DNA of 32,915 nt, from positions 1-32,915 of the forward strand of contig NZ_MAUD01000019.1 in assembly GCF_001700515.1 (NCBI RefSeq), read 5' to 3'. The translations under genes were made by a program, and so were the position numbers. The notes beneath the pieces were generated by a model. It was given only the letters and a program-made list of their open reading frames with translations, was not told where the DNA came from and ran no database searches. Positions 6,633-29,907 of the stretch are shown here, one piece after another; within the stretch, counting starts at the first letter, position 1, and the number at the start of each line of letters is the position of its first letter. Origin of the DNA: Streptomyces lushanensis (GTDB taxonomy: Bacteria > Actinomycetota > Actinomycetes > Streptomycetales > Streptomycetaceae).

Positions 6633-6657
6633 ACGCACTCCTCAACCGTCTCGTCGG

Positions 6658-6682
6658 CCGGACCGGAAGCGCCCCGGTCCGG
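6658..6682 (-). terminator. Perfect 9-bp hairpin between the two LLM genes
   Basis: CCGGACCGG (6658-6666) and CCGGTCCGG (6674-6682) form a 9-bp stem with a 7-nt loop in the 92-bp gap between the LLM genes. There is no T tract. It may attenuate or process the transcript so that the distal monooxygenase is made at a different level. Confidence 0.4.
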
Positions 6683-6724
6683 GGCCCGCCGCGGACCGCC
6701 GGCCCGGGGCGCGGGGCGGCGCCG

Positions 6725-7753: not shown

Positions 7754-7804
7754 GGAACCGGCCGTCCTTTCATGCCGTACGGGGATTGCGTGCCGTGTAC
7801 GGGG

Positions 7805-9442: not shown

Positions 9443-9502
9443 ATCGGTCCTCTGTGTGCGGGATTCCATGGGTCGGTCGGCGGACGTTCGGCGATCGGCA
9501 GG

Positions 9503-9595
9503 CGGTCGGCGTGGGGTGGACGGTCGGCGTGGGGTGGACGGTCGGCGTGGGGTGGACGGTCGGCGTGGGCTGGGCCGGCGGTCGGCGTGGGCCGG
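9503..9595. repeat. 18-bp tandem repeat, three perfect copies plus two degenerate ones
   Basis: The unit CGGTCGGCGTGGGGTGGA occurs perfectly at 9503-9520, 9521-9538 and 9539-9556. A degenerate copy at 9557-9574 and a further partial copy to 9595 follow. It fills most of the 153-bp gap between the ATPase stop and the binding-protein start. Because 18 is a multiple of 3 it can be read as Pro-His-Ala-Asp-Arg-Pro repeats on the minus strand, but no start or ribosome-binding site supports translation. Confidence 0.9.
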
Positions 9596-10480
9596 TCAGA
9601 GCGGTGCGGAGGGCTCGACGGTGGTGGCGTCGAAGGAGGCGGCGGGGACGGCGGCCGTGTCCGCCGGGGCCGACGCGGCGGCGGCCGTACGGGACGGTGC
9701 CTCCGCGGCGGCGAGCAGGGCCCGGGTGTACGGATGGGCCGGCGCCGCCCAGAGGTCCGCCGCCGGGCCCTCCTCCACCACCCGGCCCTGCCGCAGCACC
9801 ACCACCCGGTGGGCCAGCCGGCGGACCACGGCCAGGTCGTGGGAGATGAAGAGATACGCGAGTCCCCGGCTCTCCTGGAGCCCGACCAGCAGATCCAGCA
9901 CCTGCGCCTGGACCCGGAGATCGAGCGCCGAGGTCGGTTCGTCGCAGACCACCAGCTCGGGACCGGTGGCCAGCGCGCGGGCCACGGCCACCCGCTGGAG
10001 CTGCCCTCCGGACAGCTCGCGCGGATAGCGCCGAGCCAGCGCCGGATCGAGTCCGACCTGACGGAACAACTCGGCGGTACGGTCGGCCCGTTCGCGTCGG
10101 GGCGTGCCGTGTGTCCGCAGGGCGAGGGCCACGGCCTCACCCGCTCTCAGAGCCGGGTTCAGAGAGCCGCGCGGATGCTGCGGCACGAACTGCAACCGGG
10201 CGCGTACGGGCCGGGCGGACCGGCCGCGCAGCCGGTACGGATCGTGCCCGGCGAACCGTACGGTGCCCAGCGTCGGCGCGAGCAGACCGAGGCTCAGCCG
10301 GGCGAGTGTCGACTTCCCGGAGCCGGACTCGCCGACCAGTCCGACCGTCTCGCCCGCGGCGACGGTCATCGTGACCCGGTCCAGGGCGGGCCTGCCGCCG
10401 CCGTCCGCGTCGCGCCCGGTCGCAGCGCCGCCCGGGTAGCGCTTGGTCACCCCGGTGAGGGAGAGCAGGGCCTCGGTCAC
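9596..10480 (-). CDS. ABC transporter ATP-binding protein, DppF/OppF type (294 aa)
   Basis: Cytoplasmic ATPase subunit of the peptide-type importer. It shows Walker A GESGSGKST, the Q-loop region FVPQHPRGSLNP, the signature LSGGQLQRVAVARAL, Walker B LVVCDEPTSALD and the switch His in FISHDLAVV. The ending HPYTRALLAAAE is typical of OppF/DppF proteins. A low-complexity Ala/Pro/Thr tail of about 40 residues follows. Its ATG overlaps the stop of the preceding ATPase gene by 4 bp, so the two are translationally coupled. Confidence 0.95.
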   Translation of the reverse strand: MTEALLSLTGVTKRYPGGAATGRDADGGGRPALDRVTMTVAAGETVGLVGESGSGKSTLARLSLGLLAPTLGTVRFAGHDPYRLRGRSARPVRARLQFVPQHPRGSLNPALRAGEAVALALRTHGTPRRERADRTAELFRQVGLDPALARRYPRELSGGQLQRVAVARALATGPELVVCDEPTSALDLRVQAQVLDLLVGLQESRGLAYLFISHDLAVVRRLAHRVVVLRQGRVVEEGPAADLWAAPAHPYTRALLAAAEAPSRTAAAASAPADTAAVPAASFDATTVEPSAPL

Positions 10481-11331
10481 CGGTGGCCTCCCGCTCCGGC
10501 GGCCACCAGTTCGGCCGCGTAAGGATGCCGGGGGCGGGTGAGCACCTGTTCCGCGTCTCCCGACTCGACGATCCGGCCGCCGCGCATGACCGCGACCCGG
10601 CCACCGATCCGCCGGGCCGCGATGAGATCGTGGGTGACCATCAGCAGGGCGATCCCGTGTACGGCGCGCAGGGACGCGAACAGATCGAGGATCTGCGAGC
10701 GGACCACGGCGTCCAGGGCGGTGGTGGGCTCGTCGGCCACCAGAAGTCCGGGAACGCAGGACACGGCCAGGGCGATCGCCGCCCGCTGGCGCAGTCCGCC
10801 GGACAGTTCATGCGGATAGCTGCGGGCGATCCGGTCCGGTTCGTCGATCCCGGCCCGTTCGAGCAGACCGGGCACGGCCGCCCGCGCCGCCCCGCGCCCG
10901 GTGGCGATGCCGTGGCGCAGCAGAACCTCGGTGAGCTGGGAGCCGATCCGGCGCAGCGGATCCAGCGATCCCGTCGGGTCCTGCGGCACATAGCCGATGC
11001 GCCGGCCCCGTATCCGGGACAGCGCGCGCTCGTCCGGCGGACGCAGATCGGTGCCGTCGACCTGTACGCGCCCGGTGACCTCGGCGCCGTGGCCGGGCAG
11101 TCCGAGGACCGTCCTGGCCACGGTGGTCTTGCCGCTGCCCGATTCACCGACGAGGACCAGCGCGCCGCCGGGTTCGACGGTGAGGGTCACCTGGTCGACG
11201 GCGAGGAGCGGACCGGCCGCTCCCGGATAGCGGACGGTCAGTTCCGTGACGGCCAGCGCCGACGTGCTCGGTACGGAACGGCTCGCCGGCGCGGGACGGC
11301 TCGACGACGTGCTCGGCGCGGGACGGCTCAT
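10477..11331 (-). CDS. ABC transporter ATP-binding protein, DppD/OppD type (284 aa)
   Basis: First ATPase subunit of the importer: Walker A GESGSGKTT, Q-loop GYVPQDPTGSLDP, signature LSGGLRQRAAIALA, Walker B LLVADEPTTALD, and switch MVTHDLIAARR. The open frame continues far upstream. ATG at 11331 is chosen because it overlaps the permease stop by 4 bp (ATGA) and gives the normal length. The first ~25 residues are a Ser/Pro/Ala/Arg-rich repeat with recurring SRPAPS-like motifs, before the conserved part begins at LAVTELTVRYPG. Confidence 0.95.
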   Translation of the reverse strand: MSRPAPSTSSSRPAPASRSVPSTSALAVTELTVRYPGAAGPLLAVDQVTLTVEPGGALVLVGESGSGKTTVARTVLGLPGHGAEVTGRVQVDGTDLRPPDERALSRIRGRRIGYVPQDPTGSLDPLRRIGSQLTEVLLRHGIATGRGAARAAVPGLLERAGIDEPDRIARSYPHELSGGLRQRAAIALAVSCVPGLLVADEPTTALDAVVRSQILDLFASLRAVHGIALLMVTHDLIAARRIGGRVAVMRGGRIVESGDAEQVLTRPRHPYAAELVAAGAGGHR

Positions 11332-12263
11332 CGGACGGCCTCCGCAAGCAGCGCCCCGCTGTCGCCGGCGCGTGCGCGCAGGGCGTCGCCGAGGGTGTTG
11401 AAGACCACCGAGACAGCCAGGATGGTGAGCGCGGGCAGGACGGCGACGGACGGGTGGGTCAGCAGGGCGGGCCGCGACTCGTCCAGCATCGCGCCCCATT
11501 CGGGGTCGGGCGGTGCCACGCCCAGCCCGAGGAAGGAGAGTCCGGCCGCGTAGACGATGGCCAGGCCGACGAGCGACGAGCAGTAGACCAGGACGACGGG
11601 GGCCACGACCGGGGCGACCTGGCGGACCACCACGGCGGCCCGGCCCGCGCCGCTCACCCGCGCGGCCTCCAGAAACTCGGCGGTGCGGATGCGCTGCACC
11701 TCGGTGAAGCAGACGCGGGCCACCGCCGGGGTGAGCACGAAGGACAGGGAGATCACGGTGGTGGTCAGCCCCGGTCGCAGCAGGGAGGCGACGGCGATGG
11801 CGAGCAGTACGCCGGGGAAGGCGTAGAGCACGTCCAGCGTACGGAGGAGGGCCTGCTCGGTGATCCGTCCGGCGAGGGCGGCGACCGCGCCCAGCAGTGT
11901 GCCCGCCACCGCCGCGACGGCCACCGGCAGCAGCCCGCCGGTCAAGGACGGCCGCACGGCCACGACCAGCCGGCTCAGCATGTCCCGGCCCTGGGTGTCG
12001 GTGCCGAGTGGATGGCCCGGTGTCCAGAGGCCGAGCAGCCGGTCGTCCAGGCTTCCGGCGGCCGGGTCCTGCGGAGCGATCCAGGGACCGGCGACGGCCA
12101 GCAGCAGGAGGAGGGCGGCCAGCCCGGCGGGCACCAGCAGCCCGGGCCCGTACCGGCCCCGTGCAAGGCGTGCCCTCCGTCCCTTCCGGGCCCGCCGCTC
12201 CTCCTGGGCATTCCGGGTGTCCTGGGCGTTCCGAGCCTGTGTCATGGCGGCCGGCCGGGTCAT
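11328..12263 (-). CDS. ABC transporter permease, DppC/OppC type (311 aa)
   Basis: Inner-membrane permease. After a basic N-terminus comes the first membrane segment (LLVPAGLAALLLLLAVAGP), then the DppC-type motif HPLGTDTQGRDMLSRLV. The cytoplasmic EAA loop is EAARVSGAGRAAVVVRQVAP, and the family ending GLSFLGLGVAPPDPEWGAML is present. ATG at 12263 overlaps the upstream permease stop by 4 bp. Six membrane segments are expected. Confidence 0.95.
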   Translation of the reverse strand: MTRPAAMTQARNAQDTRNAQEERRARKGRRARLARGRYGPGLLVPAGLAALLLLLAVAGPWIAPQDPAAGSLDDRLLGLWTPGHPLGTDTQGRDMLSRLVVAVRPSLTGGLLPVAVAAVAGTLLGAVAALAGRITEQALLRTLDVLYAFPGVLLAIAVASLLRPGLTTTVISLSFVLTPAVARVCFTEVQRIRTAEFLEAARVSGAGRAAVVVRQVAPVVAPVVLVYCSSLVGLAIVYAAGLSFLGLGVAPPDPEWGAMLDESRPALLTHPSVAVLPALTILAVSVVFNTLGDALRARAGDSGALLAEAVR

Positions 12264-13210
12264 CGCGCGCTCCTGACCCGGGGATCGACGAGCGCGTGCG
12301 CCGCGTCCACCAGGATGTTGATGCCCACGAACGCGACCGCGACCAGCAGTACTCCGCCCTGGACGAGCGGAAGGTCGCGTGCGGTGAGCGCGTCGTACAG
12401 CAGCCGTCCGACACCCGGCCAGGCGAAGAGGGTTTCCACGAAGACGACCCCCTCCAGCAGATAGGCGAGCTGGAGCCCGCCGATGGTGAGGAGGGCGGGC
12501 GAGGCGTTGTGGACACAGTGCCGCAGTACGGCGGTCCGGCTCAGCCCTCGGGCCCGCAGGCTGTCCGCGAGGTCCGAGGTGAGCACGGAACCGAGGGCGG
12601 TACGGAACACCCGGGCGGTCAGGCCCAGTGGTACGAGCGCGGCGGCGGTCGCGGGCAGCACGAGATGGCGTACCAGGTCGAAGGGGCCACCGCCGCCGAA
12701 CACGTCGTGCGTACCGCCCGCGGGCAGCCAGCGCAGCCATACGGCGAAGACGGCGATCAGCAGCAGCGCCACCGAGTACTGGGGAGCGGAGACGGCGAGC
12801 GTGTTCAGCGCGCCGGACAGCCGTCCCGGCACTCCCCGGGGACGCAGGGCGCCGAGCGTGCCGAGCGCGGTCCCGCCGGTGACGACCAGGGCGAACGCGA
12901 CCGCGGTGAGCAGCAGGGTCTGGCCGAGCGCGGGCAGCAGCGTTTCCGTCACCGGGCGCTGCGCGGAGATGGAGACACCCAGGTCGAGGTGGAGCGCGTG
13001 CCAGAGCCAGTTGCCGTACTGGACCGGCACCGGCTCACCGAGGCCGAGCCGCTCGGTCAGCTCCCGCCGGGACTCCGGGGGCGCGCCGGGACCGAGCAGG
13101 GCGCCGACCGGATCGCCCGGGATCAGGGCGACCGTCAGGAAGACCACGACCGTGACGCCGAGCAGGGTGGGCACGGCCAGCAGCAGCCGGCGCAGCAGGA
13201 AGCGCCTCAC
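12260..13210 (-). CDS. ABC transporter permease, DppB/OppB type (316 aa)
   Basis: First permease of the importer. The N-terminus RRFLLRRLLLAVPTLLGVTV is the classic DppB start, followed by ALIPGDPVGALLGPGAP, the EAA-like loop ADSLRARGLSRTAVLRHCVH, and EGVVFVETLFAWPGVGRLL. I chose GTG at 13210. It gives the family-typical N-terminus and overlaps by 4 bp (GTGA) the stop of a 22-codon ORF that carries a strong ribosome-binding site. The in-frame ATG at 13261 would add 17 Arg/Pro-rich residues and has no ribosome-binding site of its own. Confidence 0.9.
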   Translation of the reverse strand: MRRFLLRRLLLAVPTLLGVTVVVFLTVALIPGDPVGALLGPGAPPESRRELTERLGLGEPVPVQYGNWLWHALHLDLGVSISAQRPVTETLLPALGQTLLLTAVAFALVVTGGTALGTLGALRPRGVPGRLSGALNTLAVSAPQYSVALLLIAVFAVWLRWLPAGGTHDVFGGGGPFDLVRHLVLPATAAALVPLGLTARVFRTALGSVLTSDLADSLRARGLSRTAVLRHCVHNASPALLTIGGLQLAYLLEGVVFVETLFAWPGVGRLLYDALTARDLPLVQGGVLLVAVAFVGINILVDAAHALVDPRVRSAR

Positions 13211-13275
13211 CCTTCGGCCCGCCGGGCGAGGAGACCGGGGCGACCGGCGGCGGGCGGGCATGGGCGGCGGAACAT
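13207..13275 (-). CDS. 22-codon upstream ORF, translationally coupled to the permease
   Basis: ATG at 13275 follows GGAAGGA by 6 nt, the best ribosome-binding site in the area. The peptide begins MFRRPCPPAAGRPG and ends ARRAEG. Its TGA overlaps the GTG of the DppB permease (GTGA), so ribosomes finishing it could restart on the permease. It is in a different frame from the permease. It may be a regulatory leader peptide or simply a loading site for the operon. No homology is recognised. Confidence 0.5.
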   Translation of the reverse strand: MFRRPCPPAAGRPGLLARRAEG

Positions 13276-13662
13276 GAGCGGTCCTTCCGGGAGTTCGGGG
13301 TGGCGGCGCGGTGTGGTGGCACGGTCTCGGGGTGGCCGGTGGGGACCGCGGCCGGGGCCGGTACGGCGCCACCGCCCGGCGCCCGTTCGGAAGGTCGATT
13401 CGCAGGGCCGTCCGCGCGAAACGGCCACGGTGCGGCCACGGTGCGGCCACGGTCGTCGGAGCCCTCGGTCGTGGGGTTCGGTCGCGGGGACGGACCGGCG
13501 CGGCGCCGTCGGGCCCGGTGAGACCGGACCGGGCCGCCGTGTCGAAGAATGGGGGATGCCAACACCCCTCAGCCAGGCAACAGTTCATGCTGATACCCGA
13601 GGTCATAGGATCGGGCGGACCCGGCAGGGGGGTGGGTGTGACCGGTGCTGCCCTGGCCGACA
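13276..13662. promoter_or_regulatory. Non-coding control region upstream of the ABC operon, with an 11-bp triple direct repeat
   Basis: No convincing gene is seen in this stretch between divergent units. It should contain the promoter of the minus-strand transporter operon, but I cannot place its -10/-35 with confidence. The clearest structure is three head-to-tail copies of CGGCCACGGTG with exact 11-bp period at 13422-13454 (the last copy ends C). A more AT-rich patch at 13580-13612 contains TAGGAT-like and TATGAC-like hexamers on opposite strands. Confidence 0.5.
13422..13454. repeat. Three direct repeats with 11-bp period
   Basis: CGGCCACGGTG is repeated at 13422, 13433 and 13444. One helical turn per copy places all copies on the same face of DNA, as in multi-protomer activator sites. 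The position, 150-180 bp upstream of the operon's first start codon, is suitable for an activator. Confidence 0.7.
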
Positions 13663-13691
13663 TTGACCCACAGCAAGCCCCTTACTAGGCT
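13663..13691 (+). promoter_or_regulatory. Strong sigma-70-type promoter, leaderless start
   Basis: TTGACC (13663-13668), 17-bp spacer, TAGGCT (13686-13691). The predicted transcription start, about 7 nt after the -10, coincides with the ATG at 13698. This is the best consensus promoter in the window. Confidence 0.7.
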
Positions 13692-13697
13692 GTAAAT

Positions 13698-13796
13698 ATG
13701 GCTATTCCGTGCACCGACTTCACCTTGGTCGGTATCGGCGGCTCGTGGCACCGCAGGTGCTTCGACGAGCTGTGTAGCGCCCTCACGCGGCGCTGA
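13698..13796 (+). CDS. Leaderless 32-codon ORF with three cysteines, possible leader peptide
   Basis: The ATG at 13698 lies exactly where the TTGACC-17-TAGGCT promoter should start transcription. The ORF begins MAIPCTDFTLVG and ends DELCSALTRR, with Cys at 5, 21 and 26. There are no in-frame stops before TGA at 13794-13796. It precedes the LuxR-type gene by 217 bp on the same strand. Short leaderless ORFs rich in one amino acid are known elsewhere in actinobacteria as attenuators that sense that amino acid. Here cysteine would be the candidate, but this is inference. Between it and the LuxR gene (13797-14013) I see no further convincing gene. Confidence 0.5.
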   Translation: MAIPCTDFTLVGIGGSWHRRCFDELCSALTRR

Positions 13797-14013
13797 CCTT
13801 CGGCTCTTCCCCGAACAGCGGCGCCCTCTCCTCCTCTGCCGGCACTTTCCGTACCCCGGCCCAGGTCACCGCCGACCTGATGGCAGGCCAGGGGTACGCG
13901 GGAGAACTCCGGCGTCACCGTCGTATCCGAGGGGAACGCAGCGCGATGCCATACCACTTCCGAGAACGTGCTCCCAGAACGGCCGTCGCCCTCCGCCGGA
14001 GGGGTGGCCGGCC

Positions 14014-14937
14014 ATGGAACTCCTGACCGGGGCGGACCCGGGCGCCGGGCGTGGACGGCGGCAGCCGGCGCGCCGCGCGCCGCGCGCGCTGCTCGGGCGT
14101 ACGGGCCCCGAGGCGCTGCACACCGAGATCGACAACCCGCTCGATCTGATCGCGGGCCATCAGATGCTCGCCGAGCAGGAGGACCGCGCACCGGGCCTGA
14201 CGGCCTCGCCGCGGCTCAACCCGGCACCCGTGGGCTGCGCCTGCGGCCATCCGCTGTGCACGGAGTCCGCCCACCGCGAGCGGCTGCCCACCCGGGTGTT
14301 CCTGGTGGAGCGCCATCCGGTGGCGTGCGCAGGACTGCGCAGTGTGCTCGGGCCCGTGCCGGACATGGCGGTGGTCGGCAGCTCGGGCGATCCGGACCGG
14401 GCGCTGGAGGCCGTACGCAGGATCCGTCCCGATGTCGTCCTGCTCGGCGGCGGCGACACGCTGGGCGACGACCTGTCCGCCGTGGTCCGGCTGCGCGGCC
14501 CGGAGGGCTTCCCGGGCGCGCGGGTGCTGCTGCTGCGGCGGGCCGAGAGCACCACGGAGGCGAGCAGGATGCTGCTCGCCGGGGCGAGCGGCTGCTTCCC
14601 GCTCGAACTGGCGGAGGACCGGATCATCAGTACGGTGTCGATGGCGGCGGCCGGCGCGACGGTCTTCCTGCCGGCGCCGCCTCCGGTCCAGGTCCATCCC
14701 GCCAGCCTGGCCGGCCACGCGGGCGAACCACTGCCGCAGCACTGCGGGCTGACGGGCCGTGAACGCCAGGTGCTCGCGCAGCTCGCCCGGGGTCTGAGCA
14801 ACGCGGAGATCGGCCGCGAACTCGCCCTCGCGGAAGCGACGGTGAAGAAGCACCTCACCCAGGCGATGCGCAAGACGGGCCAGTCGGACCGCCTGCGGGC
14901 AGCGCTCTACGCCCACCGCCACGGCCTGGCGGGCTGA
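14014..14937 (+). CDS. LuxR/NarL-type regulator with degenerate receiver domain (307 aa)
   Basis: The C-terminal LuxR helix-turn-helix (about 246-307) has LTGRERQVLAQLARGLSNAE, then LALAEATVKKHL. A response-regulator fold covers about 92-225, but the key residues are missing. The usual acidic pair of VDDHP is Glu99-Arg100 (VERHP), and the phospho-acceptor position after PDVVLL is Gly145, so it cannot be a conventional phosphorylated regulator. A ~90-residue N-terminal extension contains GCACGHPLC (74-82), a possible thiol or metal site. ATG at 14014 has GGAGGGG at 13998-14004. It sits immediately before the five-gene operon on the same strand and is its likely regulator. Confidence 0.9.
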   Translation: MELLTGADPGAGRGRRQPARRAPRALLGRTGPEALHTEIDNPLDLIAGHQMLAEQEDRAPGLTASPRLNPAPVGCACGHPLCTESAHRERLPTRVFLVERHPVACAGLRSVLGPVPDMAVVGSSGDPDRALEAVRRIRPDVVLLGGGDTLGDDLSAVVRLRGPEGFPGARVLLLRRAESTTEASRMLLAGASGCFPLELAEDRIISTVSMAAAGATVFLPAPPPVQVHPASLAGHAGEPLPQHCGLTGRERQVLAQLARGLSNAEIGRELALAEATVKKHLTQAMRKTGQSDRLRAALYAHRHGLAG

Positions 14938-15289
14938 CCCGGCCCGGGGCGCACGGCGCGCACGCCCACCGGGGCGACGACGGGGGTCCGGCGCCGCGCG
15001 CCGCGCCGGACCCGTCCCACCGGCGCGCGGCGGAGGCCCGGCTCCGGTGAACAGCGGCCTCCCGCGTTCAGGACAGGCTCAAGGGCGGGCCCCTGACGGG
15101 TGCCCGCCCTTCGGCGTGCCCGCCGGCGGCCCGTCCTTTGCGGGGCGACCTTTGGAGCATCCCGCGTGGGCCCATCGTCGCCGTTACCGACTCCGTTCGG
15201 GGCTTCTGGGGGCCATGGCGGCGTACCTAGCGTTACGGGCGGACCAGGAGTCGCCCGGTCCTCATCCACGCCTGGCCAAGGAGATCCCG
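14938..15289 (+). promoter_or_regulatory. Intergenic region upstream of the five-gene operon
   Basis: No gene is supported here. The stretch contains the strong hairpin at 15081-15111 and, downstream of it, a weak -10-like TAGCGT at 15228-15233. AAGGAG (15279-15284) is the ribosome-binding site of the first operon gene. The operon promoter is therefore probably between 15112 and 15260. Confidence 0.4.
15081..15111 (+). terminator. Strong hairpin, likely terminator of the LuxR-type gene
   Basis: AAGGGCGGGC (15081-15090) pairs perfectly with GCCCGCCCTT (15102-15111). The loop adds an inner CCC/GGG pairing. It lies 144 bp after the regulator's stop, without a T tract, as is common in Streptomyces. 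Confidence 0.6.
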
Positions 15290-16153
15290 ATGAGCGATGC
15301 GGCCGAAGGAGGCATCGCCCGCGCCGGTTCGCGCGACACCGTCGCGGACGGTACCGGTACACCGCCCGAGACGGAATCCGCCGACAGCGGACGCGCCCGG
15401 ACGACGGTCCTGCCGGACGACGGCACGGCCGGCGGCGCCGTACGACCCGAGAAGTCCCGCAACCCGTACCGCTCGATGCCGGACGCGGAGCGCTCCGCCC
15501 TGTGGCGGCAGCGGCTCCACGAGGCCGAGGCCGGTCTCACCGGGCTGCTCGCCTCGCTCGGCGACGAGGTCCATCTGACCGACTGGTTCGCCCTCCAGGC
15601 CGAGCTGTTCGCCGATCTGCCGGATCCGCGCACCGCTCCGGCCGCCGAATGGCAGCGGGTCTTCTTCCGGGACCAAGCACTGATGGAACGTTTCCTCGTG
15701 GCCCGTTACGGCGAGGCGATACTCGCCGACTGGGCACGCGCCAACGCCGGGGTGCACCGCCAGGTGGAACCCGACCACGGCCGGGGCGCCGGCGATCCCG
15801 TCCACCGGATCGCCCGTCAGGCCGAACTCTACGGTTCCGACTACGAGTTCGACGACGAGTTCGAGGACGACGACACCGCGCCGGCGGGCCTCACGCACGC
15901 CGCGCTCACCATCACCCACTGCGCCATCTGGGACTACCGCGAGCAGGCCCGCCGCAACGGCGTACGGCTCACCCTCGCCTCGCCCTGCACGTACTGCACC
16001 GAGGCCCTGAGCGCCAATATCCGCGCCAAGGGCTATGTGCCCGCGCACCAGTTGCGCACCGGCCCCACCGGGCACGGCTGCCGCTGGGAGGCCACCGCGC
16101 CTCCCGTCCCGGGCGCCGCGCCCTCCCCCACCGACGAACTCCAGGAGCCCTGA
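15290..16153 (+). CDS. Cys-motif protein resembling aminothiazoline-carboxylate hydrolases (287 aa)
   Basis: The start at 15290 is supported by AAGGAG 5 nt upstream. The first ~60 residues are low complexity and probably disordered. A helical section follows (about 65-150), then an acidic patch DDEFEDDD. A conserved-looking C-terminal half contains ITHCAIWDYREQARRNGVRL, SPCTYCTEALSANIRAKGY and TGHGCRWEA. The spaced Cys residues (ITHC, CTYC, GHGC) and the helical N-terminal part resemble the L-2-amino-thiazoline-4-carboxylate hydrolase family. I could not confirm this, and a zinc or thiol site is the safer statement. Its TGA overlaps the ATG of the amidotransferase by one base, so both act in the same pathway. 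The true function is unknown. Confidence 0.6.
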   Translation: MSDAAEGGIARAGSRDTVADGTGTPPETESADSGRARTTVLPDDGTAGGAVRPEKSRNPYRSMPDAERSALWRQRLHEAEAGLTGLLASLGDEVHLTDWFALQAELFADLPDPRTAPAAEWQRVFFRDQALMERFLVARYGEAILADWARANAGVHRQVEPDHGRGAGDPVHRIARQAELYGSDYEFDDEFEDDDTAPAGLTHAALTITHCAIWDYREQARRNGVRLTLASPCTYCTEALSANIRAKGYVPAHQLRTGPTGHGCRWEATAPPVPGAAPSPTDELQEP

Positions 16154-17988
16154 TGTGCGGAGTCACCGGCTGGATCGACTGGGAAACCGATCTCCGGAAC
16201 GAGGAGGCGACGCTCCGGGCCATGACCGCGACGCTCGCCTGCCGCGGTCCGGACGACTCCGGCGTCCTGCTCTCCCGGCACGCCGCCCTCGGCCACCGCA
16301 GACTCGCCGTCATCGCTCCCGACGACGGCGCCCAGCCCATGGGCACCGTCACCGGTGACGGGCCGCGCACGGTGCTGACCTACAACGGCGAGCTGTACAA
16401 CTACCCGGAGCTGCGCGAGGAGCTGCGCTCGCTCGGCCACGAGTTCCGTACCCGCTCCGACACGGAGGTCGTCCTCCGTGCCCATCTCCAGTGGGGCGCC
16501 GACGCGCCCCGCCGCTTCAACGGGATCTTCGCGTACGCGCTGTGGGACGACCGCGCGCGGGAACTCCTGCTGGTGCGCGACCACTTGGGCGTCAAACCGC
16601 TGTACTGGCATCCGCACGCCTCCGGGGTGCTCTTCGGCTCCGAGCCCAAGGCCGTACTCGCCCATCCCCTCTTCCACGCCGAACTCGACGCCGAGGGCGT
16701 GGCCGAACTGTTCGCCCTGCCCGCCGCGCCGACCGCGGGCCACGGCGTCTTCCGCGGGCTGCACGAGGTGCTCCCCGGCCAGACCGTCACCGTACGGCGC
16801 GGCGGGACCCGGACCGCCCTCTACTGGCGGCCCACCGCCCGTGCCCACCCCGACGATCCCGCGACCACCCGCGAGAGGGTGCGGGCGCTGCTCGCCGACA
16901 CCGTCGAACGCCAGCTCCTCAGCGATGTCCCGCTCTGCACACTGCTCTCCGGCGGTGTCGACTCCAGCGCCGTCACCGCCCTCGCGGCGGCGGCGCGGGA
17001 GCGCGCGGGCCACTCCAAGGTGACCAGCTTCTCGGTGGACTTCCCCGGCAGCGCCGACCGCGCGCCCGACGCCTGGCGCACCGGCGCGGACGCGCCCTTC
17101 GTCCGGGCCGCCGCCGAGCACATCGGCACCCTCCACACCTCCGTGCTCATCCCGGACGACGACCTGCTGGAGGCCCGTGACGCGGTGCTGCGCGCCCGGG
17201 ACCGGCCCGGCTGGGGCGAGATGGACGCGTCGCTGCACCTCCTCTTCCGCGAGGTGCGCAGACGTTCCACGGTGGCCCTGTCCGGGGAGGCCGCCGACGA
17301 GATCTTCGGCGGCTACCCCTACTTCCACGATCCCGCGGCGCTCGCCGCGGACACCTTCCCTTGGCTGCACGGCCGCACCACTCCGGCCGCGCTGCTGCGT
17401 CCCGAGGTGGCCGCCGAGGTCAGGCCCGGGGAGTACACCGCCGAGCAGTACCGCCGCTCGCTGGCCGGCGTACCGCGGCTGGAGGGCGAGGAGGGCGCCG
17501 ACCGCCGTATCCGCGAGATCTTCCATCTCGCGCTCACCCGCTGGCTGCCGCCGCTCCTGGAACGGGTGGACCGGGTCAGCATGTCCGTCGGTCTGGAGGT
17601 CCGGGTGCCGTTCTGCGACCACCGGCTGGTGGAGTACGTGGCGAACGTGCCCTGGGCGGTCAAGACGCCCGGCGGCCGGTCCAAGGGCCTGCTGCGCGAC
17701 GCCGTACGCGATCTGCTGCCCCCGCAGGTCGCCGACCGGCCCAAGAGCGGCTACCCCTCCACGCCCGCCGTGCGCTACACGGAGGTGCTCACGGCCCGCG
17801 CGCACGAACTGCTCGCCGACTCCCAGGCGCCGGTGTTCGACCTGGTCGACCGGGAGACCGTACGCCGCGCGCTCGCCGAGGGCCGTCCGCTGCCCAGCCC
17901 GCGCACCGCGCCCAACCCGGTCGGCGGGCTCGACCATCTCGTGCAGGTCGACGAGTGGCTGCGCGCGTACCGGGTGAGGCTGCGGTGA
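16153..17988 (+). CDS. asnB: Glutamine-dependent asparagine synthetase-like amidotransferase (611 aa)
   Basis: AsnB-type enzyme: an N-terminal class II glutamine amidotransferase releases ammonia, and a C-terminal ATP-pyrophosphatase activates a carboxylate as acyl-AMP for amide formation. Cys2 follows Met in MCGVTGW, with RGPDDSG, LGHRRLAVI and TYNGELYNYPELREEL as substrate-binding motifs. The PPi loop is SGGVDSS at residues 266-272. LSGEAADEIFGGYPYF and RVDRVSMSVGLEVRVPF complete the synthetase. All catalytic landmarks are present and the length is normal. In this operon it more likely makes a carboxamide (or another C-N bond) on a pathway intermediate than housekeeping asparagine; that is inferred from context. 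The next gene's GTG overlaps its stop by 4 bp. Confidence 0.93.
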   Translation: MCGVTGWIDWETDLRNEEATLRAMTATLACRGPDDSGVLLSRHAALGHRRLAVIAPDDGAQPMGTVTGDGPRTVLTYNGELYNYPELREELRSLGHEFRTRSDTEVVLRAHLQWGADAPRRFNGIFAYALWDDRARELLLVRDHLGVKPLYWHPHASGVLFGSEPKAVLAHPLFHAELDAEGVAELFALPAAPTAGHGVFRGLHEVLPGQTVTVRRGGTRTALYWRPTARAHPDDPATTRERVRALLADTVERQLLSDVPLCTLLSGGVDSSAVTALAAAARERAGHSKVTSFSVDFPGSADRAPDAWRTGADAPFVRAAAEHIGTLHTSVLIPDDDLLEARDAVLRARDRPGWGEMDASLHLLFREVRRRSTVALSGEAADEIFGGYPYFHDPAALAADTFPWLHGRTTPAALLRPEVAAEVRPGEYTAEQYRRSLAGVPRLEGEEGADRRIREIFHLALTRWLPPLLERVDRVSMSVGLEVRVPFCDHRLVEYVANVPWAVKTPGGRSKGLLRDAVRDLLPPQVADRPKSGYPSTPAVRYTEVLTARAHELLADSQAPVFDLVDRETVRRALAEGRPLPSPRTAPNPVGGLDHLVQVDEWLRAYRVRLR

Positions 17989-18521
17989 GCGCGGCCCGCC
18001 GGCCCGTCCGCGGCGCCGAGGCGGAGGCGTACCGAGGTGCCGCGCGGCGCTGGACCACCGGTGTCGCCGTGCTCACCGCGCGCTCCGGCGAGGACGTCTT
18101 CGCCAAGACGGTCTCCTCGCTGTGCACCCTCTCCCTGGAGCCGCTGCTGATCAGTGTGGCGGTCGACGCCCGCAGTCCGCTGGCGGCGGCGGTACGCGCC
18201 AGCGCCCGGTACGCCGTGTCCGTACTGGGCGCGGCCCAGGAGCCGCTCGCCCGGCGGTTCGCCTCTCCCGGGGCCGGTCACGCCCTCGGCTTCTTCACCC
18301 ACGCCCCGATGCGCGAGGACACCGGAGCGCCCGTCCTGGAGGACAGCCTCGCCTGGTTCGACTGCCGGCTGCACAGCGTCCTGCCGGGCGGCGACCACGC
18401 CGTTCTCGTCGGCCGGGTGGTCGAGGCGGACGTCGGTCAGGGCGAGCCGCTGCTGTACCACGACGGCCGCTACCGCACTCTCCACCACCAACCGATGACG
18501 TCGACAGGAGCCCGCGCATGA
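17985..18521 (+). CDS. Flavin reductase, HpaC-like partner of the monooxygenase (178 aa)
   Basis: Small flavin reductase-domain protein that supplies reduced flavin from NAD(P)H to a monooxygenase. Typical motifs are RRWTTGVAVLTAR near the N-terminus and KTVSSLCTLSLEPLLISVAV (the flavin-binding region), followed by ARYAVSVLGAAQEPLARRF. The C-terminal part has DHAVLVGRVVEADVGQGEPL and LLYHDGRYRTL. GTG at 17985 overlaps the amidotransferase stop (GTGA), and its own stop overlaps the ATG of the HpaB-like gene. This is a two-component system in textbook order. Confidence 0.92.
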   Translation: MSAARRPVRGAEAEAYRGAARRWTTGVAVLTARSGEDVFAKTVSSLCTLSLEPLLISVAVDARSPLAAAVRASARYAVSVLGAAQEPLARRFASPGAGHALGFFTHAPMREDTGAPVLEDSLAWFDCRLHSVLPGGDHAVLVGRVVEADVGQGEPLLYHDGRYRTLHHQPMTSTGARA

Positions 18522-20020
18522 CCCGACTGGACACCTCGGCACCGGGGAAGGGGCCGGGGAGGGGCCTGCTCACCGGCGACCGCTACCGGGCCGAGCTGAA
18601 CGACGGCCGCGAACTGTACCTGGACGGCGCGCGTGTCACCGACACCGCGGCGCACCCGGCCTTCCGGCCCGCCGTCGACGAGCTGGCCCGGCTGCTCGAC
18701 CTCCAGCACGATCCCGCCCATCACGAGCTGCTCACCTGGAAGGACCCGGACACCGGAGCGCGGCTGGCCCGTGGCTACCAGCCGCCGCGCACCCTGGAGG
18801 AGCTGCGCGTACAGCGGCGCAGCGCCGAGTTCTGGCACGCCGAGTCCCTCGGCCAGCACGGCCGTTCGCCCGCCTTCATGGCGTCCATCGCCGTCGGTGT
18901 GCACGACTTCCGCCATCAGCTGGAGCGGGCGCGTCCGGGCTTCGGCGCCAACGCCGAGGCGTGGTACCGCCATTGCGCGGCCAACGACCTGGTGCTCTCG
19001 CACGCCCTCGGCGACCCCCAGATCGACCGCTCCACCGATCCGGTCGACGATCCCGATCTCGCCCTGCGGGTGCTGGAGGAGAACGACCGCGGCATCGTCG
19101 TACGCGGCGCCAAGCAGCTCACCACGCTCGCGCCCCTCGCCCATGAGGTGCTCGTCTATCTCTCGGCGTCCTTCACCCAGCGCCGCGGCGAGCAGTTCGT
19201 GGTCTGGTTCGCGCTGCCGCTCAACACTCCCGGTCTGGTGACGCTGTGCCGCGAGCCGCTCGGCAGCAGTCCCTGGGGCCATGCCCATCCGCTGGGCGCG
19301 CGCTTCGACGAGCAGGACGCCATGCTGTTCTTCGACGACGTGACGGTGCCCTGGGACCGGGTGTTCCTGCTGCGCGACGGTGAGCTGGCCCGGCGCGGAC
19401 TGGGCCGGATCAACGCCTGGAGCGCGTACATCGGCCATGTCCGCTACCGGGAGCGGCTGCGGACGCTGCTGGCCACGGCCACCCTTGTCGCCGAGAGCAT
19501 CGGTGTGGACGGCTTCCGCAACATCCAGGAGGACCTCGGCCGGCTGGCCGGCTACGCCGAACTGACCGAACTCTTCCTGGACGCCGCCGAGGCCAGGGCC
19601 ACCGTCACCGACAGCGGTCTGCTGGCCCCGGGCGACACCGCCGCCAGCCGTGTCTGGTCCGCGGAGGTCGCCGAGAGCGCCGTCGCCATCGTGCGCGGGA
19701 TCGGCGCCTCGGGGCTGCTGATGCAGCCCACCGAGAACGATCTCGCACATCCCCGGCTGCGCCCGCATCTCGACCGGTACATGCGCGGACGGGGCATCGA
19801 CGCCGAGCGCAAGTCCCGGCTGTTCCGGCTCGCCTGGGAACTCACCGGCGACGCCTTCGGACAGCGCCAGCATCTGTACGAGTACGTCCACCGCGGCGAT
19901 CTGGCCCGCAACCGCATCAACCTCTACAAGCGGTACGACCAGAGCGCCGTCCGGGAACGGCTCCAACGGCTCATCGACGTACCCGCCCCGCCCGCCGCTC
20001 CTCAGGAGGTCAGTCCGTGA
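18518..20020 (+). CDS. HpaB-family flavin-dependent monooxygenase (500 aa)
   Basis: Oxygenase component related to 4-hydroxyphenylacetate 3-monooxygenase. These enzymes hydroxylate phenols with reduced flavin and oxygen, and relatives oxidise amines. The family pattern is clear: LLTGDRYRAELNDGRELYLD at the start, then RTLEELRVQRRSAEFWHAES, GRSPAFMASIAVGVHDF, GIVVRGAKQLTTLAPLAHEV and FALPLNTPGLVTLCREPLGS. FDDVTVPWDRVFLLRD and a helical C-terminal bundle follow. Near-normal length (HpaB about 520). The flavin reductase is encoded directly upstream with a 4-bp overlap. Substrate unknown; with the amidotransferase and methyltransferase it suggests hydroxylation then O- or N-methylation of an aromatic acid/amide. 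Confidence 0.93.
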   Translation: MTRLDTSAPGKGPGRGLLTGDRYRAELNDGRELYLDGARVTDTAAHPAFRPAVDELARLLDLQHDPAHHELLTWKDPDTGARLARGYQPPRTLEELRVQRRSAEFWHAESLGQHGRSPAFMASIAVGVHDFRHQLERARPGFGANAEAWYRHCAANDLVLSHALGDPQIDRSTDPVDDPDLALRVLEENDRGIVVRGAKQLTTLAPLAHEVLVYLSASFTQRRGEQFVVWFALPLNTPGLVTLCREPLGSSPWGHAHPLGARFDEQDAMLFFDDVTVPWDRVFLLRDGELARRGLGRINAWSAYIGHVRYRERLRTLLATATLVAESIGVDGFRNIQEDLGRLAGYAELTELFLDAAEARATVTDSGLLAPGDTAASRVWSAEVAESAVAIVRGIGASGLLMQPTENDLAHPRLRPHLDRYMRGRGIDAERKSRLFRLAWELTGDAFGQRQHLYEYVHRGDLARNRINLYKRYDQSAVRERLQRLIDVPAPPAAPQEVSP

Positions 20021-20871
20021 CCGCGTCCGCCACCGAGATCCAGGCCCGTACGCTCGCCGGCTACGCGCACGCCAGCGCGCTGCGGCAGATCCACGACCGC
20101 GACTGGGTGCTCGACCGGGTGACCGGCGAGCCCGAGGTGCTGCTCGATCTCGGCAGCGGCATCGGCCAGTTGCTGCACGAGGCACTTGAGCGGCACCCGT
20201 CCCTGCGGCTGGCCGTCGGCCTGGAGCGCTCCGAGCACCGGATCGCCGAGGCCGCCGAGCTGCTGAGCGCCCGGGGCGACCGGGTCCGGCTGCACCGGGC
20301 CGATCTGACGGCGCCGCCCGAACTGCCGGAACTGCCCGACGGCGCCGACGTGGTGACCATGACGTCGGTGCTGCACTGGCTCTATCCGGACGAGGAGCGG
20401 ACGCTCGACTGGATCAGCCGTCAACTCGCCCCGGACGGGGTCTTCCTGCTGACGACCTACCATCCGGACCGGGACGCGCACGGGCTGGGCGGCGAGGACG
20501 ACCTCGTCCGTGACGCGCTGGTGGCCCTCGGCACCGAACGGAGCGCGGTGCCCTCGGTGTTCTCCGACGGCGGCGTCCTGCCCATCGCGACCAGGACCCG
20601 TACGGAGAGCGAACTGGGCGCGCTGCTGGAGCGGTTCTTCCACGTCGACTCCTCCCTGGAGCGCGACGCGGTGGTCACCGTCGAGAGCGGGAGCCAGTAC
20701 GAGCACTTCCACGCGGCGACCTTCGGCGACTACTACGCCCGGCTCCTCGAACCGGCCGGGCGCGCGGCCTTCTTCACCGCGGTCGGCGAGAGCGCCTGGC
20801 GGCGCCAGCGCGAGCGGGGCCGGGTCAGCGAGATGCCCGTACGGCTCTGGCGGCTCACCCCGCGCCGGTGA
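20017..20871 (+). CDS. SAM-dependent class I methyltransferase (284 aa)
   Basis: Rossmann-fold methyltransferase. Motif I is VLLDLGSGIGQLL (about residues 40-52), with the acidic residue of strand 2 in GLERSEHRI and the motif IV-like region DVVTMTSVLHWLYPDEERTL. A post-motif DGVFLLTTYHPDRDAHG follows. It resembles small-molecule O- or N-methyltransferases; no substrate-specific feature is recognised. GTG at 20017 overlaps the monooxygenase stop by 4 bp, making it the last gene of the five-gene operon. Confidence 0.92.
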   Translation: MTASATEIQARTLAGYAHASALRQIHDRDWVLDRVTGEPEVLLDLGSGIGQLLHEALERHPSLRLAVGLERSEHRIAEAAELLSARGDRVRLHRADLTAPPELPELPDGADVVTMTSVLHWLYPDEERTLDWISRQLAPDGVFLLTTYHPDRDAHGLGGEDDLVRDALVALGTERSAVPSVFSDGGVLPIATRTRTESELGALLERFFHVDSSLERDAVVTVESGSQYEHFHAATFGDYYARLLEPAGRAAFFTAVGESAWRRQRERGRVSEMPVRLWRLTPRR

Positions 20872-20951
20872 GCGTCCGACTACGCTGAGAGGGCGGGCAC
20901 CCGGACCCGGCGGGCCCGCCGACACCCGTCCTGTCCGGCCGAGGAGCCACG

Positions 20952-21833
20952 ATGTCAACTCCCCTCCCCAGCGCGAAACTCGGCGCGTTCCTCCGAGCCC
21001 ACCGAGAGCTGCTCAAGCCCGCCGACGTCGGGCTGGTGGCCACCGCGCGCCGGCGCACCCCCGGGCTGCGCCGGGAGGAGGTGGCCTCGCTCTCGGGCGT
21101 GGGACTGGCCTGGTACACCTGGCTGGAGCAGGGCCGGGTGACCGCTTCCCGGCAGGTGCTGGGCGCGGTCACCCGGGCGCTGCGGCTCGACGCGGCCGGG
21201 CAGCGGCACGCGATGCGGCTGGCCGGCTACCACGATCCCGCGCTCCCGGCGGAGGAGGACGGCGGCGGCGGTGGACTGGCCGCCGCCGTCCAGCCGGTGC
21301 TGGACTCCTGGACCGCCAGTCCGGCCGTCCTGCTGGACCGGTACTTCGATCTGCTGGGCTGGAACACCGCGTGGGGAGCCCTGTGGGGCAGCCCGGACAC
21401 CGTTCCCGAGGACCGCCGCAATCTGATGTGGCTGATGGTGGCCGACCAGCGGCTGCGGACGGTGCTGCGGGACTGGGAGCCGCTGGCCATGAACGTGTTC
21501 CAGCACTTCCGCGCGCAGGCGGGCCCGGCGCTGGAGGATCCCCGTACCGACGAGGTCTACCGGCGTCTGGACGAGGACGCGCCGGAGCTCCGCCACTGGT
21601 GGGGATGCCACTCGGTGGCGGAGCTGACGGCCCGTACGGTCGTCGTGGAGCCGGCCGGGATCGGCAGGACCGAGCTGTCGCTCTCGTCCTTCCACCCGGT
21701 GGACGACCCGAGCGCGCTGGTGCTGCTCTTCACACCGGTGTCCGCCACGGACCGCGCCCGGATGGGAGCCCTCACCGAGCGGCCTCTGCGGTCCGTCGAT
21801 CCGGGCGCGGGCGCGGGACGTCAGGCCGGCTGA
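20952..21833 (+). CDS. XRE/MmyB-family transcriptional regulator (293 aa)
   Basis: Same family as the regulator near 5 kb, but clearly a different protein. The HTH region has RRRTPGLRREEVASLSGVGL followed by AWYTWLEQGR. The MmyB-type domain runs from about 105, with FDLLGWNTAWGALWG, RNLMWLMVADQRLR, RHWWGCHSVAEL and LSLSSFHPVDDPSALVLLF. GAGGAG (20941-20946) precedes the ATG. The gene starts 80 bp after the methyltransferase and converges on the MFS exporter gene, overlapping it by 13 bp. It is the nearest candidate regulator for either neighbour. Confidence 0.92.
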   Translation: MSTPLPSAKLGAFLRAHRELLKPADVGLVATARRRTPGLRREEVASLSGVGLAWYTWLEQGRVTASRQVLGAVTRALRLDAAGQRHAMRLAGYHDPALPAEEDGGGGGLAAAVQPVLDSWTASPAVLLDRYFDLLGWNTAWGALWGSPDTVPEDRRNLMWLMVADQRLRTVLRDWEPLAMNVFQHFRAQAGPALEDPRTDEVYRRLDEDAPELRHWWGCHSVAELTARTVVVEPAGIGRTELSLSSFHPVDDPSALVLLFTPVSATDRARMGALTERPLRSVDPGAGAGRQAG

Positions 21834-23059
21834 TCCTGCCGTACGGCCTTCTTCGGGCCCGCGCCGACCGTGAGCGCGCCCAGCGCCGCGAGGACCGCCA
21901 GACCGGTACCGATGACCAGGGTGCCGGTGGTGACCTCGGCGAAGGATCCCACCGCCCAGGCGCCGATGCCGGTGCCCGCGTACATGGTCGAGGTCAGCCA
22001 GGCGCTGGAGGTCGCGCGCAGCTCCGGATCGACGGTGCCCGCCAGCGTCTGCTGGTCGGTGACGAAGCCGCCGCTGGCCACGAACCACACGACCACGCCG
22101 GCGAGCGCGAGCACCGGTCCCGGGCCCCAGGCCGACAGGGTGATGCCCGCCGCCATCACGACTCCCCACACGGGCAGCAGCGGCACCTGGTTGCCTCCGG
22201 CCGCGCGGGCCCGGTCGCCCAGCCGGCCGCCGAGCAGGGAGCCGGCCACACTGCCCGCGCCGACCAGGATGCCGACGAGTCCGAGTTCCGAGACGGACAG
22301 GTCGAAGCGGTCGACGAGCAGGGCGCCCAGGAAGGTGTAGGCACCGAGATTGGCCGCGTGGAAGACCGTGTTGACGGTGAGCGCCTTGCGCAGCGTCGGA
22401 TCGCTCCATCCGGCGAGCACGGCCCTGACCGCGCCGACCTGGGCCGGCCGGCCGGTGCTCGCGGGGAGCTGGCGCAGCAGCAGAGGCAGCGCGAGGGCGG
22501 TGGCCACGGCCATGGCGAGGAACGCGGAGCGCCAGCCGGCCCGGCCGGCGAGCACCGCGCCGAGCGGTACGCCGATCACCTGGCCGCAGGAGAAGAGCGC
22601 CATGCCGAGGCCGAGGGCCCGGCCACGCACCCGGTCGGGCGCGGTCTCGGCGATATGGGCCCAGATCGCGGGGCCCGCGGCGGCGGCGGCGAGACCGGCG
22701 ACGGCGCGCGAGACGACCAGCAGCGCCAGTCCGGTGGAGAGCGCGGCGATGGCGTTGGACACGAGGAAGAGCGCGGCACCGGCCAACAGGGTCCGCCGCC
22801 GTCCGAACCGGTCGCTGAGCAGACCGAGGAACGGCGCGCAGATCGCGTACACGAGGACGTACGCGGTCACACTGGAGGCCGCGGCGGCCTCGCTGACGTC
22901 GATGTCCTCCGCGATGGTCGGCAGGAGCGGAGAGACCAGGAAGGTCTCCGTGCCGAAGAGGAAGAGCAGGGCGAAGACGCCGGCGTACCGCAGTCGGTCG
23001 AAGGTCTCGGATGCGGTGTCGGGGGCGTGCGCGTCCGGGGGACCGCTCAAGGGGATCAC
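21821..23059 (-). CDS. MFS drug/metabolite exporter, DHA1-type (412 aa)
   Basis: Twelve-helix major facilitator. The conserved loop between helices 2 and 3 is LSDRFGRRRTLLAGAALFLV, and helix 5 carries the antiporter-type motif MALFSCGQVIGVPLGAVLAG. The N-terminus contains FLFGTETFLVSPLLPTIAED, typical of proton-driven drug exporters such as the chloramphenicol-efflux branch. The start is taken as GTG at 23059; an AAAGG lies very close upstream, and an in-frame TTG at 23050 is the alternative. The 3' end overlaps the convergent XRE gene by 13 bp. It could export the product of the five-gene operon or of the ATP-grasp ligase next to it; this is inference from position. Confidence 0.93.
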   Translation of the reverse strand: MIPLSGPPDAHAPDTASETFDRLRYAGVFALLFLFGTETFLVSPLLPTIAEDIDVSEAAAASSVTAYVLVYAICAPFLGLLSDRFGRRRTLLAGAALFLVSNAIAALSTGLALLVVSRAVAGLAAAAAGPAIWAHIAETAPDRVRGRALGLGMALFSCGQVIGVPLGAVLAGRAGWRSAFLAMAVATALALPLLLRQLPASTGRPAQVGAVRAVLAGWSDPTLRKALTVNTVFHAANLGAYTFLGALLVDRFDLSVSELGLVGILVGAGSVAGSLLGGRLGDRARAAGGNQVPLLPVWGVVMAAGITLSAWGPGPVLALAGVVVWFVASGGFVTDQQTLAGTVDPELRATSSAWLTSTMYAGTGIGAWAVGSFAEVTTGTLVIGTGLAVLAALGALTVGAGPKKAVRQDQPA

Positions 23060-23200
23060 TGCCTTTCGGGCGTCGTGGGGAGTCCCGGCGGCGACGGGGG
23101 CCGTACGGGAGAAGCCACGTGCGGCTCCGGCGGCGGCAGGGACCGTCCGGCCCCGCCATGCTGCTCGGGACGCGCGGACGCAACCAGGCAGGCGTTCATC

Positions 23201-27740: not shown

Positions 27741-28028
27741 GACCACCATCTCCTCGCTCTGGAACTCATACCGGATCTGAGGAATCTGAGGAAACCGTCA
27801 TCTGTGAGCCTGCGCTGGCGAGAAGTGTGCGTCCAATACGCACTGGTGAACAGTTGATAGCAAACGTTTATCAAGCGAGTTGCCGCGCTTCCCGCGCTCC
27901 CGCGACCAGCATCAATAAATGCTGTTTATCGGTTGGTCGCCGATAGGTCTTGGACGGGCGAACGCGCGCCGAACAAGGTGGGACAAGAAGCCGCACAGGC
28001 ATGACCGCCCAAGGAGGACCTCGGAGCC
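27741..28028. promoter_or_regulatory. Divergent control region of the oxalate genes with several dyads
   Basis: This 288-bp gap is clearly more AT-rich than its surroundings. Dyads: GTGCGT-N5-ACGCAC (27827-27843); TTGATA-N9-TATCAA (27854-27874) with AACGTT at its centre, a LysR-box-like shape; CAGCAT-N6-ATGCTG (27907-27924) inside the larger GCGACCA...TGGTCGC (27902-27908 with 27934-27940); and TATCGG-N7-CCGATA (27927-27945). AAGGAGG (28011-28017) is the oxc ribosome-binding site. Exact -10/-35 boxes are not assigned. Confidence 0.7.
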
Positions 28029-29786: not shown

Positions 29787-29907
29787 CCGTCGCGCGCGGA
29801 CGTTCCGCCCTCCCCCGAACCCCGCGCGCTCTCCTGAACCCCGCGCGTACTCAGCACACCGCACACTCCACCCTCGCACCGAGATCATTCACGAGAAGGA
29901 AGCCAAC

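Follow-up and report, generated by a model that had tools for sequence, protein, structure and literature searches.

An eighteen-kilobase gene block shared by Streptomyces and Kitasatospora, in which an amidotransferase, flavin hydroxylase and methyltransferase core lies between an exporter and an Opp/Nik-type importer

The stretch of DNA analysed here, called the window throughout, comprises positions 1 to 32,915 of contig NZ_MAUD01000019.1 of Streptomyces lushanensis (assembly GCF_001700515.1) and contains five plus-strand genes, designated A to E, which encode a cysteine-rich protein, an amidotransferase, the two parts of a flavin-dependent hydroxylase and a methyltransferase:

15290-16153, plus strand: gene A, protein with no Pfam or NCBIfam family and four invariant cysteines (211, 233, 236, 264)
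16153-17988, plus strand: gene B, class II glutamine-dependent amidotransferase of the AsnB type (GATase_7/GATase_6 and Asn_synthase; TIGR01536 461.6 bits, cut-off 267)
17985-18521, plus strand: gene C, flavin reductase (Flavin_Reduct PF01613, 125.4 bits)
18518-20020, plus strand: gene D, HpaB-type two-component flavin hydroxylase (HpaB_N PF11794, 271 bits; HpaB PF03241, 144 bits)
20017-20871, plus strand: gene E, class I S-adenosylmethionine-dependent methyltransferase (PF08242, 49.6 bits)

The five open reading frames (ORFs) overlap by 1 base at A/B and by 4 bases at each of B/C, C/D and D/E, an arrangement reported in the initial annotation and read directly from the sequence, and the GC content at third codon positions of all five lies at 0.88-0.94. 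In related loci, the A-B spacing is -1 to +1 in 17 of the 18 loci L014-L031, the exception being L026, where the picked A ORF is a fragment; in L015-L031, a spacing of -4 is found for B-C in 15/17, for C-D in 12/17 and for D-E in 15/17 loci, values that rest on automatic picking of start codons, the deviating ones included. This recurrence of overlaps is beyond chance. In L026 (9803-10015; G227, a Kitasatospora strain), an in-frame TAG lies near the N-terminus of A, and the real start is probably downstream of it.

Genes A to E form the core of a set of about 15 genes covering some 18 kb (5520-23083), which consists of two luciferase-like oxidoreductases, a five-gene Opp/Nik-type ATP-binding cassette (ABC) importer, a LuxR regulator, A to E, an MmyB regulator and a major facilitator superfamily (MFS) exporter. 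Taking the five genes as the whole unit, as the initial annotation did, proves too narrow: it had correctly placed a pseudo-receiver LuxR gene upstream and an MmyB regulator and exporter downstream, and missed the importer, the F420-type enzyme and a tiny ORF at 13698-13796. The other members of the block, together with two tiny ORFs, are the following:

5520-6638, minus strand: LLM1, SsuD-like luciferase-like monooxygenase (LLM) dependent on flavin mononucleotide, an optional member (best NCBIfam TIGR03565 130.6 bits, under its cut-off of 518)
6725-7753, minus strand: LLM2, F420-dependent LLM-class oxidoreductase (TIGR03841 243.5 bits, above its cut-off of 213.65)
7805-9469, minus strand: substrate-binding protein of an Opp/Nik/Gsi-type ABC importer (GsiB 174, NikA 164, CntA 102 bits, all under cut-off)
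9596-10480, minus strand: importer ATPase 2, NikE/DppF-like (NCBIfam)
10477-11331, minus strand: importer ATPase 1, NikD/OppD-like (NCBIfam)
11328-12263, minus strand: importer permease 2, Opp1C/NikC-like (NCBIfam)
12260-13261, minus strand: importer permease 1, Opp2B/NikB-like (NCBIfam)
13698-13796, plus strand: tiny ORF of 32 amino acids, MAIPCTDFTLVGIGGSWHRRCFDELCSALTRR, probably leaderless, its ATG 6 nt past a -10-like TAGGCT
13946-14026, plus strand: second tiny ORF of 26 amino acids, running into the start of LuxR; most loci share the GAGGGGA-ATG region, though not the peptide
14014-14937, plus strand: LuxR/NarL-type regulator with a pseudo-receiver domain (GerE 52.2 bits; PF00072 18.1 bits, under its cut-off of 30.2)
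20952-21833, plus strand: MmyB-like regulator with a ligand-binding domain (PF17765, 118 bits)
21821-23083, minus strand: MFS exporter, Cmx/CmrA-like, start inferred (best NCBIfam 129.7 bits, under its cut-off of 400)

When one genome per species was scanned, close relatives of protein A were found at 18 loci, all of them in scattered species of Streptomyces or Kitasatospora. Across 391 genomes of the order, a credible relative is present in 8, of which 4, the source genome included, reach at least 60% identity; from the 13 genomes with an A match at E ≤ 0.001, five (G138, G213, G238, G296 and G297) were dropped, their match being confined to the disordered N-terminus of A (E 5.8e-4 to 8.6e-4). 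A phylum-wide scan of 396 genomes, in which at most six candidates were scored per genome listed, found A in the source genome only.

Conservation of the block was counted over 17 loci (L015-L031, with the near-identical 10-kb L014 outside the count) at an identity of at least 55% over picked ORFs, whose starts in the relatives were chosen automatically. Genes A to E are conserved together in all 17, which is the synteny that the initial annotation had proposed to look for. By picked ORFs, LuxR, B, C, D, E and MmyB are each present in 17/17 loci, and A, the MFS exporter and both permeases each in 16/17, with A and the exporter reaching 17/17 by tblastn; ATPase 1 follows with 15/17, ATPase 2 and the binding protein with 14/17, LLM2 with 13/17 and LLM1 with 10/17. 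The lower counts for the importer and LLM2 arise because some of the locus stretches stop too early, and in L026 both are present once the same record is read further (L041). Within the block, conservation is highest for LLM2, with a mean identity of 90.5% in its 13 loci, the other four stretches stopping before it. LLM1, by tblastn, has no match at its position in L018, L020 and L023, and an unrelated ORF occupies that place in L018. Neighbouring genes outside the block were found in 0/17 loci within a reach of no more than 1.3 kb beyond LLM1 and about 3 kb beyond the MFS gene, which covered the ATP-grasp-like ORF and LysR gene on the right, the acyl-CoA ligase and the LAL (large ATP-binding LuxR-family) regulator of the window flanks lying mostly beyond it; because the flanking genes tested are found in none of the loci, the block is taken to begin with LLM1 or LLM2 and to end with the MFS gene. 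Additional genes separate LuxR from A in L026 and L031; by eye they differ between the two, and a similar gap exists in L030. In agreement with the initial annotation, no characterised cluster with the same set of genes was recognised in term searches of the open-licence literature.

A more distant version of the block (G202; A 60%, LuxR 44%, LLM2 80% identity) keeps LuxR, A to E, MmyB and the MFS gene together, with LLM2 directly after the latter. No importer was found at this cluster, nor the tiny ORF, which was looked for by DNA pattern and by a motif search of L036 that a very divergent peptide would escape. Because G202 keeps them without the importer, LuxR, A to E, MmyB, the exporter and LLM2 look like the core of the system, and LLM2, kept beside A to E there, probably works with them; the importer and the tiny ORF would be additions that came later or were lost. 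Further afield, two clusters, L037 and L038, share an AsnB protein (48%), an A relative (42-46%), an LLM enzyme, a class-II 3-deoxy-D-arabino-heptulosonate 7-phosphate (DAHP) synthase, an AMP-ligase-like protein (in L038 assigned by eye, by resemblance to the L037 ligase) and an aldehyde-dehydrogenase-like protein; L038, with A at 46%, also contains a complete Opp-type importer. A LysR-like gene, recognised by eye, is also seen in this related orphan cluster (L037/L038). In L039, A lies with a Rieske oxygenase, a CMD protein and a class-II DAHP synthase, and in L040 (6364-14900) a short A relative lies with a 3-dehydroquinate (DHQ) synthase II, an AMP-binding ligase and a fusion of a flavin adenine dinucleotide-dependent hydroxylase to an O-methyltransferase, a cluster that may belong to a 3-amino-4-hydroxybenzoate pathway. 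A travels with aromatic pathways in all four of these loci.

Protein A itself has Cys211, Cys233, Cys236, Cys264 and Trp266 among its residues invariant in 18 sequences; its alignment leaves aside L001, L002, L003, L005-L008, L014 and L026 (copies, short stretches and fragments), and the 18-row set additionally L019, L020, L024 and L030. The AlphaFold model has a mean predicted local distance difference test score of 78.9, with blocks in residues 61-270 at 80-96, except 191-200 at 58. Its best structure neighbour is H-NOX (Z 9.0, root-mean-square deviation 4.2 Å, 153 residues aligned), with Bet3 proteins next at Z of about 7, where a best Z of 7-8 is typical of models with no clear match; by Foldseek, the best E is 0.011 and none lies below 0.001, and the MopR phenol/catechol sensors stand at ranks 19 and 22 (probability 0.84 and 0.77, E 0.1). 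Since the H-NOX, Bet3 and MopR matches are of middling strength, the predicted H-NOX/Bet3/aromatic-sensor-like fold of A is only a lead. H-NOX, Bet3, V4R and perhaps the ATC hydrolases form one superfamily. Pfam does not place A in the ATC hydrolase family PF14196, with 0 of the 18 members matching it; their Pfam matches fall into four unrelated families, one member each, with a best E of 0.064. In a profile comparison (22 proteins, from 25 loci), PF14196 aligned with the C-terminal part of A, cysteines included, at an hhalign score of 31.4 and an HH probability of only 21%, ten shuffled controls scoring 8.8-12.7 and one reversed control 14.2; in the single ATC sequence shown aligned, nothing corresponds to the CxxC of A. 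V4R (PF02830) gave a profile score of 11.3 and no match (9 of 12 loci in the profile). Ring opening by A, which the initial annotation had suggested as a possibility, is not supported beyond this weak profile link to the ATC hydrolases.

Gene B combines an N-terminal glutaminase (PF13537, 137 bits) with an ATP-using synthetase (PF00733, 314.5 bits), and the catalytic Cys2 and the SGGxDS loop are kept in 18/18 sequences, consistent with the carboxylate-amidating AsnB-type enzyme predicted in the initial annotation. Its best PDB match is the hydroxyamidotransferase TsnB9 (7ylz), at 507 bits versus 147 for E. coli AsnB, which may just reflect the scarcity of solved AsnB-type structures. B is 44.6% identical to TsnB9 and 49.8% identical to the other AsnB of the source genome (C711); in a small unrooted tree with few sequences, TsnB9 groups with C711 (support 0.995) and B stands apart, the branch of a second paralog, C65, being without meaning since its sequence was empty. 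AurF-type enzymes (TsnB7, PF11583) gave no match in the source genome (732 contigs, 99.96% complete), in a search whose controls matched in 1 of 14 cases, below cut-off. A hydroxamate reading of B, prompted by the 7ylz match, is not supported by these two observations. Because B lies outside the TsnB9 branch and no AurF-type gene was found, the locus looks unlike a TsnB cassette.

The closest solved relative of D is the Thermus thermophilus HpaB (276 bits), and D scores under both HpaB equivalog cut-offs in NCBIfam. Arg100, Tyr104 and His142 of the T. thermophilus enzyme contact the phenol substrate; the equivalents of Arg100 and His142 are kept in D in 19/19 sequences, and in the same 19 the equivalent of Tyr104 is Phe and that of Thr183 is Leu. 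The D-C pair resembles 4-hydroxyphenylacetate hydroxylase HpaBC in its adjoining reductase and in the two kept residues, and differs from it in the two replacements and in the sub-threshold scores. The HpaB/HpaC pair of the initial annotation is present, with two of the three phenol-contacting residues kept; the alternative of amine oxidation found no evidence. Methylation by a class I enzyme likewise stands for E, by family (PF08242); its methyl acceptor is not readable, as the model of E matches the S-methyltransferases GtmA and TmtA (Z 20.2 and 20.0) and, within about 2 Z units, N-, C- and carboxyl O-methyltransferases as well (SAMT 18.7, JHAMT 18.6), Z being about 18-20 across types.

Among the regulators, the acceptor Asp of the LuxR receiver is replaced by Gly in 10 and by Ala in 1 of 19 sequences, the motif not being found in the other 8; LuxR here reads PDVVLLG or similar, where PDVVLLD is the usual receiver motif. 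Replacement in all 11 sequences with the motif agrees with the pseudo-receiver described initially. The 32-codon ORF lies between the divergent importer and LuxR genes in the layout TTGACC-17-TAGGCT-6-ATG and occurs in 17/17 loci covering its place (L014-L028, L030, L031), with 32 codons in 13 loci and a longer C-terminus in L026, L028, L030 and L031. Over codons 6-26 in 18 sequences, 17/21 residues are identical, and the proportions of synonymous (pS) and nonsynonymous (pN) differences are 0.237 and 0.051, the remaining two frames showing the reverse; the sequences were anchored on a conserved 15-base motif, so both rates are slightly lowered. The ORF is under protein-level selection. Its DNA pattern is found in 3/391 genomes, once each and always with this cluster, and the peptide occurs once in the source genome. 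Rfam gave no match in the window. In most loci, the two divergent transcripts are preceded by conserved DNA (in the window at about 13580-13620, TTCATGCTGATACC..GGTCATAGGA), a possible operator. The mycobacterial polycysteine leaderless attenuators, as described in PMC9031893, likewise have a short ORF before an operon with the start codon at the probable mRNA start, and rely on runs of Cys codons, whereas the tiny ORF has isolated Cys only and most of its peptide is conserved. Because it lacks such a run, unlike these known attenuators, the tiny ORF is suggested to be a sequence-specific leader peptide.

From these genes, which are conserved as one block, we infer the chemistry, the product, the order of steps and the function as follows. 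The block may be a self-contained system in which a phenolic acid is hydroxylated, amidated, methylated, exported and recaptured, a reading to which we give a probability of about 0.45, slightly below even odds. A phenolic carboxylic acid would be hydroxylated next to its OH group by D, with reduced flavin from C; B would adenylate the carboxylate and convert it to the carboxamide with ammonia from glutamine; E would methylate, and LLM2 would perform an F420-dependent reduction or oxidation. The Cys-rich pocket of A may bind or convert an aromatic intermediate. The MFS pump would export the product, and the Opp/Nik-type importer would take up a precursor, or recover the product as such or as a metal complex. 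Expression would be set by the MmyB regulator and the pseudo-receiver LuxR, with the tiny ORF before LuxR serving as a regulatory leader peptide. The aromatic substrate is proposed because the Arg100/His142 equivalents are kept throughout, DAHP and DHQ synthases lie beside distant A genes and MopR appears in the fold list of A; the idea of synthesis, export and recapture is proposed because exporter and importer are co-conserved and because of the combination in L038. A chelating or signalling role is our guess as to the likeliest reason for an exporter and an importer occurring together.

Several observations weigh against this proposal. Since no gene of the block forms an aromatic ring, the substrate must be supplied from outside it, and the exporter and importer could serve different molecules; the binding protein of the importer falls under every NCBIfam cut-off listed, and in G202 the block stands without an adjoining importer. 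The pocket of D is not that of 4-hydroxyphenylacetate hydroxylase, given the Tyr104 to Phe replacement, and unrelated proteins often reach fold matches as strong as those of A. In the window, no DmdR (iron), Zur (zinc) or Nur (nickel) box was found above chance (0, 0 and 1 matches at up to 3 mismatches to the consensus), which makes a metallophore under the usual control less likely. As for the leader peptide, a consensus promoter scan of 13250-15300 gave no site and no terminator; as the TTGACC/TAGGCT pair was not among its results, the leaderless start is one recognised by eye. The RNA 3' of the tiny ORF has no clear conserved fold (a double change in 3/20 predicted pairs, which is weak).

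Staphylopine-type Cnt systems carry an efflux pump and an Opp/Nik-type importer beside their synthesis genes, and the present block shares with them its MFS exporter and Opp/Nik-type importer. A circuit of this type, in which A to E and LLM2 would make a catechol- or methoxyphenol-type amide chelator that is exported by the MFS pump and whose metal complex is recovered by the importer, is unlikely. In its favour, the importer is akin to Nik, Cnt and Gsi, HbpA- and nickel-binding proteins are among the closest solved structures, and importer, AsnB and A occur together again in L038. Against it stand the enzymes, which differ from those of the Cnt systems, since all scanned block genes except A belong to families other than those of opine-metallophore synthesis (nicotianamine-synthase-like, opine dehydrogenase), as well as the lack of a metal box and of an importer beside the G202 core. 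A hydroxamate pathway of the trichostatin A or benzohydroxamic acid type, in which B would move hydroxylamine from glutamyl hydroxamate to a carboxylate and HpaBC or A would make the donor, is improbable. The match of B to TsnB9 speaks for it, as does the cassette itself: according to PMC13418202, TsnB-type enzymes turn free benzoic acid into benzohydroxamic acid and a methyltransferase gene is usually included. The two have in common an AsnB-type transferase that uses a free carboxylate, a nearby methyltransferase, a small aromatic amide-like product (here a predicted one) and an actinomycete host. In the TsnB6/7/9 cassette, however, TsnB7 is AurF-like, with the helper TsnB6, according to PMC5719088, in place of which HpaBC occurs here, its D pocket keeping two phenol residues; the position of B in the small tree and the AurF search, weak as its control was, also count against this pathway.

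We see a similarly small chance that the block serves uptake and conversion, whether catabolic or detoxifying, of an aromatic amide or peptide-like compound that is imported and oxidised by LLM1, LLM2 and HpaBC, the remainder being exported. The importer and both LLM enzymes form one minus-strand run, and SsuD/NtaA-type LLM enzymes are often catabolic; yet ATP-consuming amidation and methylation would be expensive in a catabolic route, the scanned block genes include no ring-cleavage or beta-oxidation family, G202 has the enzymes without an adjoining importer, and LLM1 is absent in three loci. That the 32-residue peptide is the precursor of a ribosomally synthesised and post-translationally modified peptide (RiPP), modified by A to E and LLM2, is very unlikely. 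Its strong conservation and its restriction, among 391 genomes, to those with the cluster would suit such a precursor, and AsnB-type, flavin and methyl enzymes are also known from RiPP clusters; however, G202 has A to E and LLM2 and no such peptide was found there, the scanned block genes include no known RiPP protease or recognition protein, and a leader peptide fits better with its position between a probable promoter, directly upstream, and a regulator. Only a slight chance is likewise given to the wider idea that the ORF is more than a leader and provides the ribosomal source or signal of a new peptide-based route or circuit, with A to E and the F420 enzyme acting on peptide-derived residues and the importer returning the peptide or product.

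Outside the conserved block, a LanM-type lanthipeptide synthetase is represented by its C-terminal part at the left edge of the window (76-1179, plus strand; TIGR03897 at 101.5 bits, below the cut-off of 304). To the right, 26100-31164 holds oxalate-use genes, namely a FadD7-family CoA ligase, an oxalyl-CoA decarboxylase (998.8 bits) and a formyl-CoA transferase (711.5 bits).

Because the conserved block contains no assembly-line genes and consists mostly of general enzyme families, pathway-calling tools may overlook the locus, which is nevertheless kept as a unit in species of two genera. Protein A represents a new Cys-rich protein family whose predicted model resembles ligand-sensing folds, and the strongly conserved peptide, encoded where the mRNA probably begins, is a possible new sensing leader. 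The exporter and importer pair is, in turn, a possible case of the recapture of a self-made molecule.

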